Source: Actinomycetota bacterium
GTDB taxonomy: Bacteria > Actinomycetota > Actinomycetes > Nanopelagicales > Nanopelagicaceae
Assembly: GCA_005800815.1 (NCBI GenBank)
Contig: SYEK01000014.1
Location: 1 to 45,080, forward strand
Reading direction: 5' to 3'
Length of the DNA stretch: 45,080 nt
The translations under genes and the position numbers were made by a program. Shown piece after piece: positions 16,480 through 45,080 of the stretch. The stretch's first letter is position 1, and the number at the start of each line of letters is the position of its first letter. Below the pieces are notes generated by a model. The model saw only the letters and a list, made by a program, of their open reading frames with translations. It was not told where the DNA came from and did no database searches.

Positions 16480-18642
16480 GTGGATACTCTGATTGCACCA
16501 GTTGTAAGTGCGCTCAAAGATAATCATCCTTCCGTATCGGCCGATGATGTAGAGCGTGCATTTCTAACCGCAGAAAAGGCACATCAAGGCCAGACAAGAA
16601 AATCAGGTGAGCGTTATATAACTCATCCGGTTGCTGTCGCTGGTATTTTGGCCGATCTCGGTCTCAACTCTGAGACAGTTATCGCGGCTCTGCTGCATGA
16701 CACCATTGAGGATACCCCTTACTCACTCAAGGAGTTACGGCACGACTTTGGCGATGAGATAGCCAAACTCGTTGATGGTGTCACCAAACTCGACAAACTC
16801 ACATATGGCCCGACCGCTGAGGCTGAAACTGTCCGTAAGATGGTCGTTGCGATGTCGCGTGATATCCGCGTTCTCGTCATCAAACTCGCTGATCGACTAC
16901 ATAATGCCCGGACGTGGAAATATGTCTCACAGGAGAGCGCCGAACATAAGGCGCGTGAAACATTAGATATCTATGCGCCCCTTGCGCACCGCCTTGGAAT
17001 GAATGCTATGAAATGGGAGTTAGAGGATCTCTCATTTGAAGTTCTAGAACCCAAGAAGTTTGATGAGATATCAAGGTTGGTGGCAGAGCGATCACCGGCC
17101 CGAGATGCTCTATCGGCACAGGTAATTGAGACCGTAACGCAAGATCTGGCTCAGGATGGCATTCATGCCACCGTTACAGGACGTAAAAAACATTTCTTTT
17201 CTGTCTATCAAAAGATGGTTGTGCGTGGGCGTGAGTTCAACGATATTTATGACCTGGTTGGAATTCGTGTCTTGGTCGATGATGTCCGTGATTGCTATGC
17301 CGTCTTAGGTTCAATTCACGCTAGATGGAGCCCAGTGCCAGGGCGTTTCAAGGATTACATCGCAATGCCCAAGTTCAATCTCTATCAATCCCTACACACG
17401 ACTGTGATAGGACCAGCGGGTAAGGCCTTTGAGATTCAAATTCGCACTCTTGATATGCATGCTCGTGCTGAGTTCGGTATCGCTGCACATTGGAAGTACA
17501 AAGCCGGTAGCGAGAGTAATCACTCATCTCCTGAGATGTTGTGGCTACGACAACTGCATGAGTGGCAAAAAGAAACTGAAGATCCCTCTGAGTTCCTTGA
17601 AGCCCTTCGCTTTGATTTAGGCACTCCGGAAGTCTTTGTCTTTACTCCCAAAGGCAGTGTTATTGCCCTACCTGGTGGGTCCACACCGGTGGATTTCGCA
17701 TTTTCAGTGCACACTGATGTTGGAATCCGTTGCGCAGGTGCAAAGGTCAATGGGCGGTTGGTTCCCTTAGAGTCTCGATTAAATAATGGTGATGTAGTTG
17801 AAATCGTGACGAATAAGGGCGATCACGCAGGGCCAAGCAGGGATTGGCTCAACTTCGTCAAAAGTCCCAGGGCGCGCTCCAAGATCAAGTCTTGGTTCAG
17901 CAAGGAGCGCAGGGAAGAGGCAATCGATGCCGGTCGCGAGTCGATTGCACGGCAGATGCGCAAGGCAGGCCTGCCTCTTCAGAAAATTTTTGCAGGTCAA
18001 TCACTTCTTGAATTGGCCCATGAGCTTCACTACTCAGATATAGATACCTTGTACTGCGCAGTCGGAGATGGGAACGTATCTGCGGCCTCGATCATAGATA
18101 AGTTGGTGCTCTCCTTTGGGGCAGATGATTCCCACCCTGAGCCCACAATGGACATTTTTCCCTCTCATGCACCTAGCACGCGGCGATCAAGTAATGCTAT
18201 CGATGTTGAGGGGGCCGATGACGTCCTCGTAAAGTTAGCAAGATGCTGCACACCTGTTCCAGGCGATGAGATTATGGGCTTTATTACAAAAGGAAGTGGA
18301 GTCTCTATTCACCGCTTCGATTGTGTGAATGCTGGAGATCTCTTGGCCAATCAATCAGACCGGGTTGTGGGTGTGAAGTGGCGTCTGGGCGCAGGCTCTG
18401 TTTTCTTGGTTAATATTCAAGTTGAGGCTCTGGACCGGGCATCACTCCTGGCAGATGTCACTCGCACTCTTTCTGAGCAACATGTAAATATCCTAAGTGC
18501 CTCAGTGAGCACTTCGAAGGATCGCACTGCTTTCTCGCGATTCACCTTTGAAATGGCCGATGCAACACATTTGGACGCGGTGTTAGTGGCGGTGCGTGGT
18601 ATCGAGGGAGTTTACGATGTGTATCGGACAACCAATAATTAG
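16480..18642 (+). CDS. rel: bifunctional (p)ppGpp synthetase/hydrolase (Rel)
   Basis: Rel makes and breaks the stringent-response alarmone. In its 720 residues the hydrolase HD domain is intact (His49; HDTIED with His73/Asp74 and Glu77/Asp78; DRLHNARTW). The synthetase domain follows with DIYDLVGIRVLV and the GRFKDYIAMPKFNLYQSLHT segment, then a TGS domain (EVFVFTPKGSVIALPGGSTP), a zinc-finger/helical part with ARCCTPVPGD, and a C-terminal ACT domain. Both activities should be present. The start is GTG 16480. It sits 9 nt after secF; the apt gene found between them in many actinobacteria is missing. The stop abuts the stop of the opposing DUF349 gene. Confidence 0.97.
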   Translation: MDTLIAPVVSALKDNHPSVSADDVERAFLTAEKAHQGQTRKSGERYITHPVAVAGILADLGLNSETVIAALLHDTIEDTPYSLKELRHDFGDEIAKLVDGVTKLDKLTYGPTAEAETVRKMVVAMSRDIRVLVIKLADRLHNARTWKYVSQESAEHKARETLDIYAPLAHRLGMNAMKWELEDLSFEVLEPKKFDEISRLVAERSPARDALSAQVIETVTQDLAQDGIHATVTGRKKHFFSVYQKMVVRGREFNDIYDLVGIRVLVDDVRDCYAVLGSIHARWSPVPGRFKDYIAMPKFNLYQSLHTTVIGPAGKAFEIQIRTLDMHARAEFGIAAHWKYKAGSESNHSSPEMLWLRQLHEWQKETEDPSEFLEALRFDLGTPEVFVFTPKGSVIALPGGSTPVDFAFSVHTDVGIRCAGAKVNGRLVPLESRLNNGDVVEIVTNKGDHAGPSRDWLNFVKSPRARSKIKSWFSKERREEAIDAGRESIARQMRKAGLPLQKIFAGQSLLELAHELHYSDIDTLYCAVGDGNVSAASIIDKLVLSFGADDSHPEPTMDIFPSHAPSTRRSSNAIDVEGADDVLVKLARCCTPVPGDEIMGFITKGSGVSIHRFDCVNAGDLLANQSDRVVGVKWRLGAGSVFLVNIQVEALDRASLLADVTRTLSEQHVNILSASVSTSKDRTAFSRFTFEMADATHLDAVLVAVRGIEGVYDVYRTTNN

Positions 18643-42417: not shown

Positions 42418-43355
42418 CAAGCCTGGACTTCTCAACCACCCTAGGCAATAGCTGGTTTCCTTCACCAGTCTTTACAGCTAGTGGCTGTGCAAGTTCGGGT
42501 CGAGAGTTGGCACAATTCTTTGCACTCCACGATATTGGTGGTGTTGTGACGAAATCAGTGATGAATAAGGCCCGCACTGGTCGCCAGACTCCCCGAATGG
42601 CTGAGACACCAAGTGGGATGCTCAACTCGATAGGGCTGCAAGGCCCTGGAATAGATGCCTTCATCGCTGTGGATATTCCATATTTGATCGAGCAAAGGGC
42701 TCGGATCATCGTCTCTATCGCGGGGGAGACGATTGAGGAGTACTCCACGTTGGCGCGCAAACTACGTGGAGTCGCTGGAATCAGTGCCGTTGAGGTAAAT
42801 ATCTCCTGCCCAAACGTTGAAAATCGAGGACTGGTATTTGCATGTGACTCTGATGCCTCCAAGCGTGTCATCGATGGCGTGCGTAGGACGATTGGAGGCG
42901 AGCTTCCAATAATTGCCAAATTATCTCCCGATGTGACAGATTTGATTTCGATTGCAAGGGGTGTGGTTGATGCAGGCGCAGATGCATTGGCTTTAATCAA
43001 CACAGTCCTGGGGATGGTCATTAATCTTGAGACGATGCGCCCTCATCTGGGGGGTAAGACAGGTGGACTATCTGGCCCGGCGATAAGACCGATTGCAGTG
43101 CGCGCGGTCTATCAAGTCCATGAGGCCCTGCCCGCGGTTCCTATCCTTGGTATGGGAGGTATCTCATCAGGGCGAGATGCTCTTGAATTCATAGCGGCCG
43201 GTGCAAGTGCAGTATCAATCGGAACAGCAAGCTTTGGAAATCCTACAGCTCTTCTAACGATACAAAGAGAGCTCAGAGAGCTTCTTGTAGCAAAGGGGTT
43301 TGTTTCCTTAAGGGATGCGGTCGGGTGTGCACATCGAGATCAGGATGCACACTGA
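42414..43355 (+). CDS. pyrD: dihydroorotate dehydrogenase catalytic subunit (class 1B)
   Basis: PyrD oxidises dihydroorotate to orotate. The 313-residue TIM barrel begins at ATG 42414 (ATGA overlap with pyrK). The catalytic base is Cys132 in VNISCPN; classes 1A/1B use cysteine and class 2 serine. Lys47 in TKSV and the phosphate-binding GMGGISSGRDALEF are present. It is soluble, without the membrane-binding N-terminus of class 2 enzymes. Confidence 0.95.
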   Translation: MTSLDFSTTLGNSWFPSPVFTASGCASSGRELAQFFALHDIGGVVTKSVMNKARTGRQTPRMAETPSGMLNSIGLQGPGIDAFIAVDIPYLIEQRARIIVSIAGETIEEYSTLARKLRGVAGISAVEVNISCPNVENRGLVFACDSDASKRVIDGVRRTIGGELPIIAKLSPDVTDLISIARGVVDAGADALALINTVLGMVINLETMRPHLGGKTGGLSGPAIRPIAVRAVYQVHEALPAVPILGMGGISSGRDALEFIAAGASAVSIGTASFGNPTALLTIQRELRELLVAKGFVSLRDAVGCAHRDQDAH

Positions 43356-43356
43356 G

Positions 43357-44058
43357 ATGGCATGGAATCCTCCTATCGTTCTGGCCGTTGATACATCTGA
43401 TCTGTCAATAGCTATCGATTGGGTAAAAGCGACGTCGGAGTCTGTCAGTGTGTATAAATTAGGCCTTGAATTCTTCCTGAGCCTAGGGCATGAAGGTGTG
43501 CGAGCTATATCAGGTGAGACCGAGCGCGACATCTTCTTAGATTTAAAGCTCCACGATATACCTCACACAGTTGCTAGTGCTGCGATGACAGTCTCGTCTT
43601 TGCGTCCAAAGTTTTTGACAGTACATGCCTCTGGTGGAAATGAGATGATTGCCGCAGCGGTGGAAGCCTTGCCCTCTACTCTCGTTGCTGGGGTGACGAT
43701 TTTGACATCTCTCGGTGATGATGATTTGAGAGCAATAGGTTACAAATCCTGTGCCCTTGAGAGTGCGGTAGCCTTGGCAAATCTGGCTGTTGCCGCTGGT
43801 GCCCGCGCCATCGTTTGCTCCCCACTGGAGATCCTTGCAATCCGTCAGAGCATTGGCGATGCAGTCACGATTATTACCCCAGGTGTTCGACCCCCGGAGA
43901 GCTCTCATGATGATCAATTACGAACGATGACACCAAGAGAGGCTATCGACAGGGGCGCAAATCTAGTCGTCATCGGTCGCCCCATCACTTCATATTGGAG
44001 CAAGGGTGTAGATGCGATGCGTAAGCAGGCTGAAGTGATCGCGACGCAACTTCTCTAA
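43357..44058 (+). CDS. pyrF: orotidine 5'-phosphate decarboxylase
   Basis: PyrF makes UMP from OMP. The catalytic lysine-aspartate array is in FLDLKLHDIPHTV, and the phosphate loop in VVIGRPI. 233 residues from ATG 43357, one base after the pyrD stop; ATG 43345, overlapping pyrD, is an alternative. Its size and motif suit the short bacterial type rather than the longer mycobacterial PyrF. pyrE, the remaining pathway gene, is not in the window. Confidence 0.94.
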   Translation: MAWNPPIVLAVDTSDLSIAIDWVKATSESVSVYKLGLEFFLSLGHEGVRAISGETERDIFLDLKLHDIPHTVASAAMTVSSLRPKFLTVHASGGNEMIAAAVEALPSTLVAGVTILTSLGDDDLRAIGYKSCALESAVALANLAVAAGARAIVCSPLEILAIRQSIGDAVTIITPGVRPPESSHDDQLRTMTPREAIDRGANLVVIGRPITSYWSKGVDAMRKQAEVIATQLL

Positions 44059-44074: not shown

Positions 44075-44080
44075 TAGGTT
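44075..44080 (+). promoter_or_regulatory. candidate -10 box for a leaderless mIHF-gmk mRNA
   Basis: TAGGTT ends 6 nt before ATG 44087. TTCTCT at 44051-44056 is a possible -35 at 18 bp. There is no Shine-Dalgarno, so the fused gene may be transcribed apart from the pyr operon. Confidence 0.45.
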
Positions 44081-44086
44081 TATTGC

Positions 44087-44959
44087 ATGGCTCTACCACC
44101 ACTTCTCTCGCCGACTCAGCGGGCCGAGGCACTAGAAAAGGCAGGTCGGTCCCGAAAGCGTAGGACTGAGATAAAGGCACAGGTTAAATCTGGGGATATC
44201 TCTATCGATGGTGTTCTAGATCTAGCTTTGAAGGATGAAGCAATCAGAAAAATGAGAGTGCGTGAACTACTAGAGTCAGTCAGCGGAGTGGGAAAAGTGC
44301 GAGCCCTGGCTCTTATGGAGCGCTTAAAAATCTCACCCACGCGTAGAATCGCAGGCTTAGGCCGGCATCAAATCAAAGAGTTGAGAAGTGAGTTTATGAA
44401 TCCATCCCATGCAATCCCACTGGGAAGGCTTTTCGTGCTCTCTGGACCCGGTGGAGTGGGTAAGAGCACTATCGCCGCGAGGCTTCGTGCATTAGATGTT
44501 TTTTGGGTGAGTGTCTCGGCCACAACGAGATTCCCACGTTCGAATGAGCGTGATGGTATTGATTATTTTTTTATCAGTGAAGAGGAGTTCTTGCGCAGAG
44601 TCAAAGATGGGCAGTTCTTAGAATGGGCAGACTTTGCTGGCAATAAATATGGAACCCCCAGGGCAGCAGTTGAGGAGGCACTCGTAGCTGGGCGTAATGT
44701 TCTTTTGGAGATAGAGATTGATGGAGCACGACAAGTAAAGTCACACCTACCCCAAGCGCTACTGATATTCCTTGAACCACCGACATGGGAAGAGTTAGTT
44801 TCTCGTCTTGAGGCACGTGGAACCGATGATCCGCTTAGACGAGCAGAGCGCTTGCAACTGGCCCAAGAAGAGCTTGCCGCTGCTTCATACTTCGACCTTG
44901 TCATCATCAATGACCGGGTTGAGCGGGTCGTTGAACAACTGATAGGCTTGACCTCTTAA
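44087..44959 (+). CDS. gmk: fused mycobacterial-type integration host factor (mIHF) and guanylate kinase
   Basis: One 290-residue frame joins two proteins that are usually separate neighbours. Residues 1-103 match mIHF: MALPPLLSPTQRAEALEKAG at the start, and the DNA-binding helix-two-turn-helix region SGVGKVRALALMERLKISPT followed by RRIAGLG. Residues about 113-290 are a complete guanylate kinase: P-loop GPGGVGKST (120-128), the GMP-binding SVSATTR (142-148) and DGIDYFF, EWADFAGNKYGTP, and LLEIEIDGARQV. Linker residues 104-112 (MNPSHAIPL) begin with Met104 (ATG 44396), which could allow internal initiation of free Gmk, though the upstream Shine-Dalgarno is poor. Predicted roles: nucleoid DNA binding and GMP to GDP phosphorylation. 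rpoZ follows, as in other Actinobacteria. Confidence 0.9.
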   Translation: MALPPLLSPTQRAEALEKAGRSRKRRTEIKAQVKSGDISIDGVLDLALKDEAIRKMRVRELLESVSGVGKVRALALMERLKISPTRRIAGLGRHQIKELRSEFMNPSHAIPLGRLFVLSGPGGVGKSTIAARLRALDVFWVSVSATTRFPRSNERDGIDYFFISEEEFLRRVKDGQFLEWADFAGNKYGTPRAAVEEALVAGRNVLLEIEIDGARQVKSHLPQALLIFLEPPTWEELVSRLEARGTDDPLRRAERLQLAQEELAAASYFDLVIINDRVERVVEQLIGLTS

Positions 44960-44996: not shown

Positions 44997-45080
44997 ATGG
45001 ATGGCATCACCAATCCTCCAATCGATGAACTACTTGATAAGTCTGGTTCCAAGTACAGCCTTGTCCTCTACGCCGCCAAG
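44997..45080 (+). CDS. rpoZ: RNA polymerase omega subunit, 5' part
   Basis: The first 28 codons, cut by the window edge, read [20 protein letters not shown] then SLVLYAAK, the conserved start of actinobacterial RpoZ. The ATG is 7 nt after GGGG, and an in-frame TGA at 44976-44978 excludes a longer form. Omega helps assemble RNA polymerase. Position after gmk is conserved. Confidence 0.93.

Follow-up and report, generated by a model that had tools for sequence, protein, structure and literature searches.

The window analysed here (the whole 45,080-nucleotide stretch of contig SYEK01000014.1, from a member of the Nanopelagicaceae) carries near its end a single uninterrupted open reading frame that runs from an ATG at 44087 to a TAA at 44957-44959 and encodes 290 amino acids, with an actinobacterial IHF (mIHF/sIHF) domain at its N-terminus and guanylate kinase (Gmk) at its C-terminus. 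The frame has pyrF on one side and the start of rpoZ on the other, which is the slot that mihF and gmk occupy elsewhere in actinobacteria. The features of the locus are as follows.

43315..44058, + strand: pyrF open reading frame, upstream neighbour by conserved gene order; the true start possibly lies further in
44075..44080, + strand: TAGGTT, a -10-like TANNNT hexamer 6 nt upstream of the start codon; candidate leaderless-mRNA promoter
44087..44959, + strand: mIHF-Gmk fusion gene, 290 aa plus stop (open reading frame call with NF041260, TIGR03263 and Pfam matches)
44087..44395, + strand: actinobacterial IHF domain, residues 1-103 (NF041260 match 3-103; model superposition on sIHF)
44396..44422, + strand: nine-residue linker, residues 104-112 (from the sequence; Met104 is the ATG at 44396-44398)
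44423..44956, + strand: guanylate kinase domain, residues 113-290 (TIGR03263 match 113-286; M. tuberculosis Gmk 1s4q)
44441..44467, + strand: P-loop SGPGGVGKS, residues 119-127, invariant across 40 fusions (alignment A3)
44997..45080, + strand: probable rpoZ (omega) start, cut by the window end (by gene order and sequence)

Profile searches placed both domains above their cut-offs, with NF041260 (actino_IHF, mihF) matching residues 3-103 at 113.4 bits (cut-off 60) and TIGR03263 matching residues 113-286 at 209.4 bits (cut-off 160.45). Pfam likewise returned H2TH_5 at 33-103 and Guanylate_kin at 114-285, each above cut-off, and the P-loop, S119-S127, was unchanged in all 40 fusions of alignment A3. 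These results bear out the original prediction of an in-frame, stop-free fusion of two full domains joined by a nine-residue linker. A free mIHF is about 105 aa long and the frame here extends to 290 aa, so we speak of an IHF domain rather than of a free mIHF. The source genome (a 1.285 Mb draft assembly in 37 contigs, 99.37% complete) held one Gmk and one mIHF by profile search, both being the fusion gene, and no second copy of either was found in it. The same genome contained two matches to the HU family and no match to Lsr2.

Separate, adjacent genes are the usual state, as the original prediction had assumed. In M. tuberculosis mihF is followed by gmk and then rpoZ, and the known mIHF/sIHF proteins are free and about 105 aa long (both from the accessible part of PMC6155035). 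An annotated Tsukamurella record likewise lists mihF and gmk as two genes, with rpoZ downstream of gmk, and many sampled genomes have an in-frame stop, among them G343, whose IHF matches S. coelicolor SCO1480 at every residue of the stretch compared.

We assessed the junction in related genomes by a protein search of public genomes, in which 40 of 43 loci were stop-free across it (L041, among these 40, is truncated by a contig end and spans residues 56-290); the remaining three had a Gmk with no detectable IHF half. Complete chromosomes are represented among the stop-free loci (CP015603.1, from IMCC25003, and OX376642.1), as is a record whose name (SCGC) marks it as a single-cell genome, and record titles of the 40 include Ca. 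Planktophila, Ca. Nanopelagicaceae and uncultured freshwater actinobacteria. The fusion is thus confirmed as real: there is practically no chance that an assembly or sequencing error conceals a stop in the window, even though the window comes from a draft assembly of 37 contigs and another apparent fusion (genome G447) proved to have N letters at its junction, because the junction is open in 40 of 43 other loci, complete chromosomes among them. Three loci (L014, L016 and L033) carried a Planktophila-type fusion under the titles Streptomycetaceae bacterium, Streptomyces griseus and Bifidobacterium breve, and are probably mislabelled metagenome-assembled genomes (MAGs).

Within the order, the IHF domain was found in 149 of 151 sampled genomes. 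By a count from the listed open frames of these 149, the IHF frame was short (105-154 aa) in 22 and longer in 127, among which G095 (197 aa) and G067 (249 aa) stay below 280 aa. Nine genera belonged to the long, fused class and six to the short, separate class, with no mixed genus; frame length by itself is no proof of fusion, and at least one locus per genus was read directly (15 of 15 genera), all in agreement. Close relatives of the window are fused, and separate genes occur only in other genera, which runs against the refutation that the original prediction had named for itself, separate genes in close relatives. The linker varies between genera in both sequence and length. In two separate genera, g7 and g11, mihF and gmk overlapped or abutted in all eight loci read (L118, L119, L120, L138 and L139 in g7; L122, L133 and L134 in g11), through ATGA, TGATG, or TAG immediately followed by ATG. 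Five further loci (L056, L058, L061, L067 and L071) turned out to be separate genes with accidental upstream open frames and were left out of the counts.

Across the phylum, a scan of 396 genomes returned at least eight stop-free two-domain matches among the matches listed, from the source genome, five genomes of family f9, G415 (f13) and G447 (f51). At least 68 more of the 396 genomes, by a hand count among the matches listed, had the two domains in the same frame, separated by nothing but stop codon(s). G447 has N letters across its junction and was discarded. In G415 the junction is open and free of N, and this genome is treated as a provisional fusion, since it is a single MAG of 82% completeness. 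The long IHF frames of G519, G342 and G363 were also rejected, as the full profile revealed a stop in G342 and, in G519 and G363, a separate match to Gmk. In family f9, 19 of 20 sampled genomes gave a single stop-free match and G667 was split between contig ends; among the 17 genomes of family f103, two were fused (both of genus g323), nine had separate IHF and Gmk matches and six had a Gmk match without a credible IHF match. Rather than an oddity, the fusion is widespread and recurrent, in nine genera of the order, in f9 and in f103. Because each fused lineage has relatives with separate genes, the fusion would have arisen three times in actinobacteria, plus once provisionally. The Gmk of the second fused family (L105-L112) has the P-loop AGPTAVGK in place of SGPSGVGK or SGPGGVGK.

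The fusion of G727 (f9) matched a Microbacterium gene over its full length at 74.5% identity (Microbacterium sp. NIBRBAC000506063, WP_223172673.1 on NZ_CP072877.1, 298 aa), so f9 is very probably Microbacteriaceae. This annotated relative has the same architecture as the gene in the window and likewise lies between pyrF and rpoZ-metK, but it has another linker, probably a separate origin, two Fic-family frames ahead of rpoZ (L215, 3152-6190) and the annotation 'guanylate kinase' only. In the same strain pyrF is annotated as two pieces, and the housekeeping genes lie on a 465 kb record labelled plasmid.

The history of the fusion within the Nanopelagicaceae was assessed with a phylogeny built from six genes of the neighbourhood (36 rows and 2591 columns, LG+G4 with a short search). 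Separate genera g5, g8, g13 and g15 fell outside the fused group and separate genera g7 and g11 inside it, such that the fused/separate label required three changes, two of them forced by starred branches. A single clade of all fused rows was rejected (p-AU = 2.9e-6), in an AU test run after the FastTree tree had already been seen; g14 is a long branch whose placement differs between the LG+G4 and FastTree trees, and the residue composition of seven rows is unusual. By eye, the linkers of g3, g4, g6, g9 and g14 appeared similar, and for this reason we favour one old fusion followed by re-splitting in g7 and g11 over repeated fusion. The overlap or abutment of mihF and gmk in these two nested genera looks like re-splitting with translational coupling.

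We read the locus as encoding one bifunctional protein that carries a working Gmk on the nucleoid, with a probability of about 0.72. The IHF domain would bind DNA without sequence preference, like sIHF and mIHF, and the C-terminal domain would act as a normal guanylate kinase. Made as a single product, the protein would keep the cell's sole Gmk on the nucleoid by means of its short flexible linker and would lock that enzyme and the sole mIHF at a 1:1 ratio. As for its origin, mihF and gmk would already have lain side by side, in many cases in frame and parted by stop codon(s), and the joining step would have been loss of the stop or, where the genes overlapped, a small change of frame. This reading builds on the fusion itself, its conservation, its recurrence and the constraint on both halves in relatives, all of which are observed, together with the predicted folds of the two domains. 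The tie of a nucleoid protein to an enzyme breaks the usual picture, in which the former is normally in large excess over the latter, and the 1:1 ratio poses a puzzle that a single product leaves unsolved (with reference to the accessible part of PMC6155035).

Compatible with this bifunctional protein, and concerning the reason for the fusion rather than its product, is the possibility that the fusion is a tolerated by-product, in which stop loss was cheap, the halves work independently and joining serves no use; we rate this at somewhat below even odds. Adjacency in one frame makes fusion easy and may be reason enough, given that the genes were neighbours in the loci read and in one frame, parted by stop codon(s) only, in the 68 or more phylum genomes counted above. 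Linkers that are unalike between families and the apparent re-splitting of two nested genera point the same way. Set against this are the recurrence of the fusion in three to four lineages and its retention through nine genera of one family and 19 of 20 sampled genomes of f9, as well as the behaviour of the surrounding genes. Over neighbourhoods of up to 15 genera, IHF and Gmk were fused in 18 of 33, whereas seven other gene pairs (two of which, CarB-PyrD and Gmk-CoaBC, have one gene in between) were fused in none of 27-33 neighbourhoods each, and joining is therefore no general habit here. General gene merging through streamlining, considered as a cause, was accordingly not seen in this neighbourhood.

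The bifunctional reading assumes a single product, and we assessed whether one gene might instead give two, with free Gmk released by an internal start at Met104 or by cleavage of the linker. Among 68 distinct fused junctions of the family, 24 had an ATG at the Met104 column, all in loci at least 67% identical to the window; any ATG between -18 and -5 was found in 33 of 68, and in 46 of 68 when GTG and TTG were included. The codon is kept among the nearest relatives of the window (27 distinct sequences have it and L010 is a known exception, in a set chosen by this trait that gives no free count), where the linker looks like a former Gmk N-terminus, and two products would solve the stoichiometry puzzle. 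No conserved ribosome-binding sequence was seen by eye ahead of Met104 in these nearest relatives, and together with the 24 of 68 junctions this makes a conserved two-product scheme unlikely. The original suggestion that Met104 yields free Gmk was accordingly weakened, applying at most to the window's nearest relatives.

Selection on the two halves was estimated from 18 pairs of relatives' fusions that are at least 80% identical in the kinase half, drawn from 34 sequences (the window is in no pair). For the IHF half dN/dS was 0.010-0.111 in the 13 pairs that gave a value (it was undefined in the other 5), and for the Gmk half it was 0.013-0.061 over all 18; because several dS values exceed 1, the ratios of those pairs are rough. 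These values indicate purifying selection on the IHF and Gmk halves alike among relatives. Across 15 fusions, drawn from three families, the IHF-half residues R23, R26, K30, G69 (the hairpin glycine), R87, G92 and Q95 and the P-loop residues G120, P121, G125 and K126 were invariant. Changes to the mIHF arginines that correspond to R86-R87 impair its DNA binding. The IHF half was basic throughout 34 sequences, with a net charge of +5 to +10. It also diverged faster than the Gmk half, most strongly in some fused genera and in other families, with IHF halves in f9 and f103 that are 28-37% identical to that of the window and profile scores down to about 82 bits in genus g3.

An AlphaFold2 model of the fusion, built from 40 sequences (A3), had a mean pLDDT of 87.6 and was weakest over block 101-110, the linker (pLDDT 63); its pTM of 0.61 means that it fixes no relation between the domains. 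In a structure comparison in which most matching rows were Gmk and two covered the IHF half, the predicted model superposed on DNA-bound sIHF 6bek (Z 16.6, 0.9 A over 89 residues) and on DNA-bound sIHF 4itq (Z 15.8, 1.1 A over 90 residues), with 47-48% identity between the IHF half and these structures, and on M. tuberculosis Gmk 1s4q (Z 25.6, 1.8 A over 179 residues). The fusion thus resembles mIHF/sIHF (M. tuberculosis Rv1388, S. coelicolor SCO1480) in its whole, above-cut-off domain, in the superposition of its model on DNA-bound sIHF and in having gmk as neighbour, but it continues stop-free into Gmk, whereas the known proteins, of about 105 aa, occur unfused. It resembles M. tuberculosis Gmk (Rv1389) in its whole catalytic domain with P-loop, at 42% identity to Rv1389 structures, and differs in the IHF domain on its N-terminal side. 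That the IHF half diverges faster in some fused lineages would be expected if that half had lost its nucleoid role and become a mere N-terminal extension of Gmk. We consider such a loss slightly less probable still than a second product, given the low dN/dS, the invariant basic and hairpin residues, the basic charge and how closely the model fits DNA-bound sIHF; the search of the genome also returned no other mIHF.

A bifunctional protein might, beyond co-locating two activities, act as a nucleotide-reading nucleoid protein, in which GMP, ATP or (p)ppGpp at the Gmk half, or the oligomer state, alters DNA binding or bridging by the IHF half. If so, chromosome packing would be set by the supply of guanine nucleotides, in the abundant actinobacteria of fresh water and independently also in Microbacteriaceae. 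A regulatory GTP/ppGpp tie is attractive because Rel is encoded in 60 of 61 genomes from the order; (p)ppGpp inhibits the Gmk of most actinobacteria, though not that of M. tuberculosis (according to the accessible part of PMC5686395). Nothing in the model of the fusion (pTM 0.61) pointed to cross-talk between the halves, and we hold a nucleotide-reading function to be improbable, at around one chance in ten. The RelA/SpoT domain in the window lies at 17179-17508, within a 723-aa Rel frame about 27 kb upstream of the fusion, and this distance is about equal in complete relatives such as G003, G004, G006 and G019.

The fusion is a real, conserved and recurrent joining of two known proteins, and its architecture is a new combination of known parts. 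No description of an mIHF-Gmk fusion was found in a literature search that covered titles and the beginnings of abstracts, with most subscription papers outside its scope. Since the one annotated example met here bears only the name guanylate kinase, name-based searches for nucleoid proteins would overlook it. If the bifunctional reading holds, one protein combines two housekeeping functions, the coating of the chromosome and the phosphorylation of GMP, across much of two actinobacterial families, with more than one origin. That this pair has been joined repeatedly may be a sign that the link is useful, in this case one between GTP supply and the nucleoid, and the fused, unfused and apparently re-split genera form a natural set that makes the question of function testable.

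We also assessed how the fusion may be expressed. A TANNNT hexamer stood 4-7 nt ahead of the fusion start in 55 of 67 distinct upstream sequences, compared with 0-10 in other 4-nt windows (the 67 are related rather than independent, and L104, L127 and L132 were left out). At the starts of neighbouring genes, in 12-kb loci whose match reached the start, the motif was found for coaBC in 2 of 11, pyrD in 0 of 3, pyrF in 0 of 13 and priA in 0 of 14 loci, and it preceded mihF in 3 of 10 cases in the separate genera. This consensus match suggests that the fusion has its own promoter giving a leaderless mRNA. TANNNT was also present 4-7 nt before the start of metK in 23 of 30 loci, which suggests another leaderless transcript.
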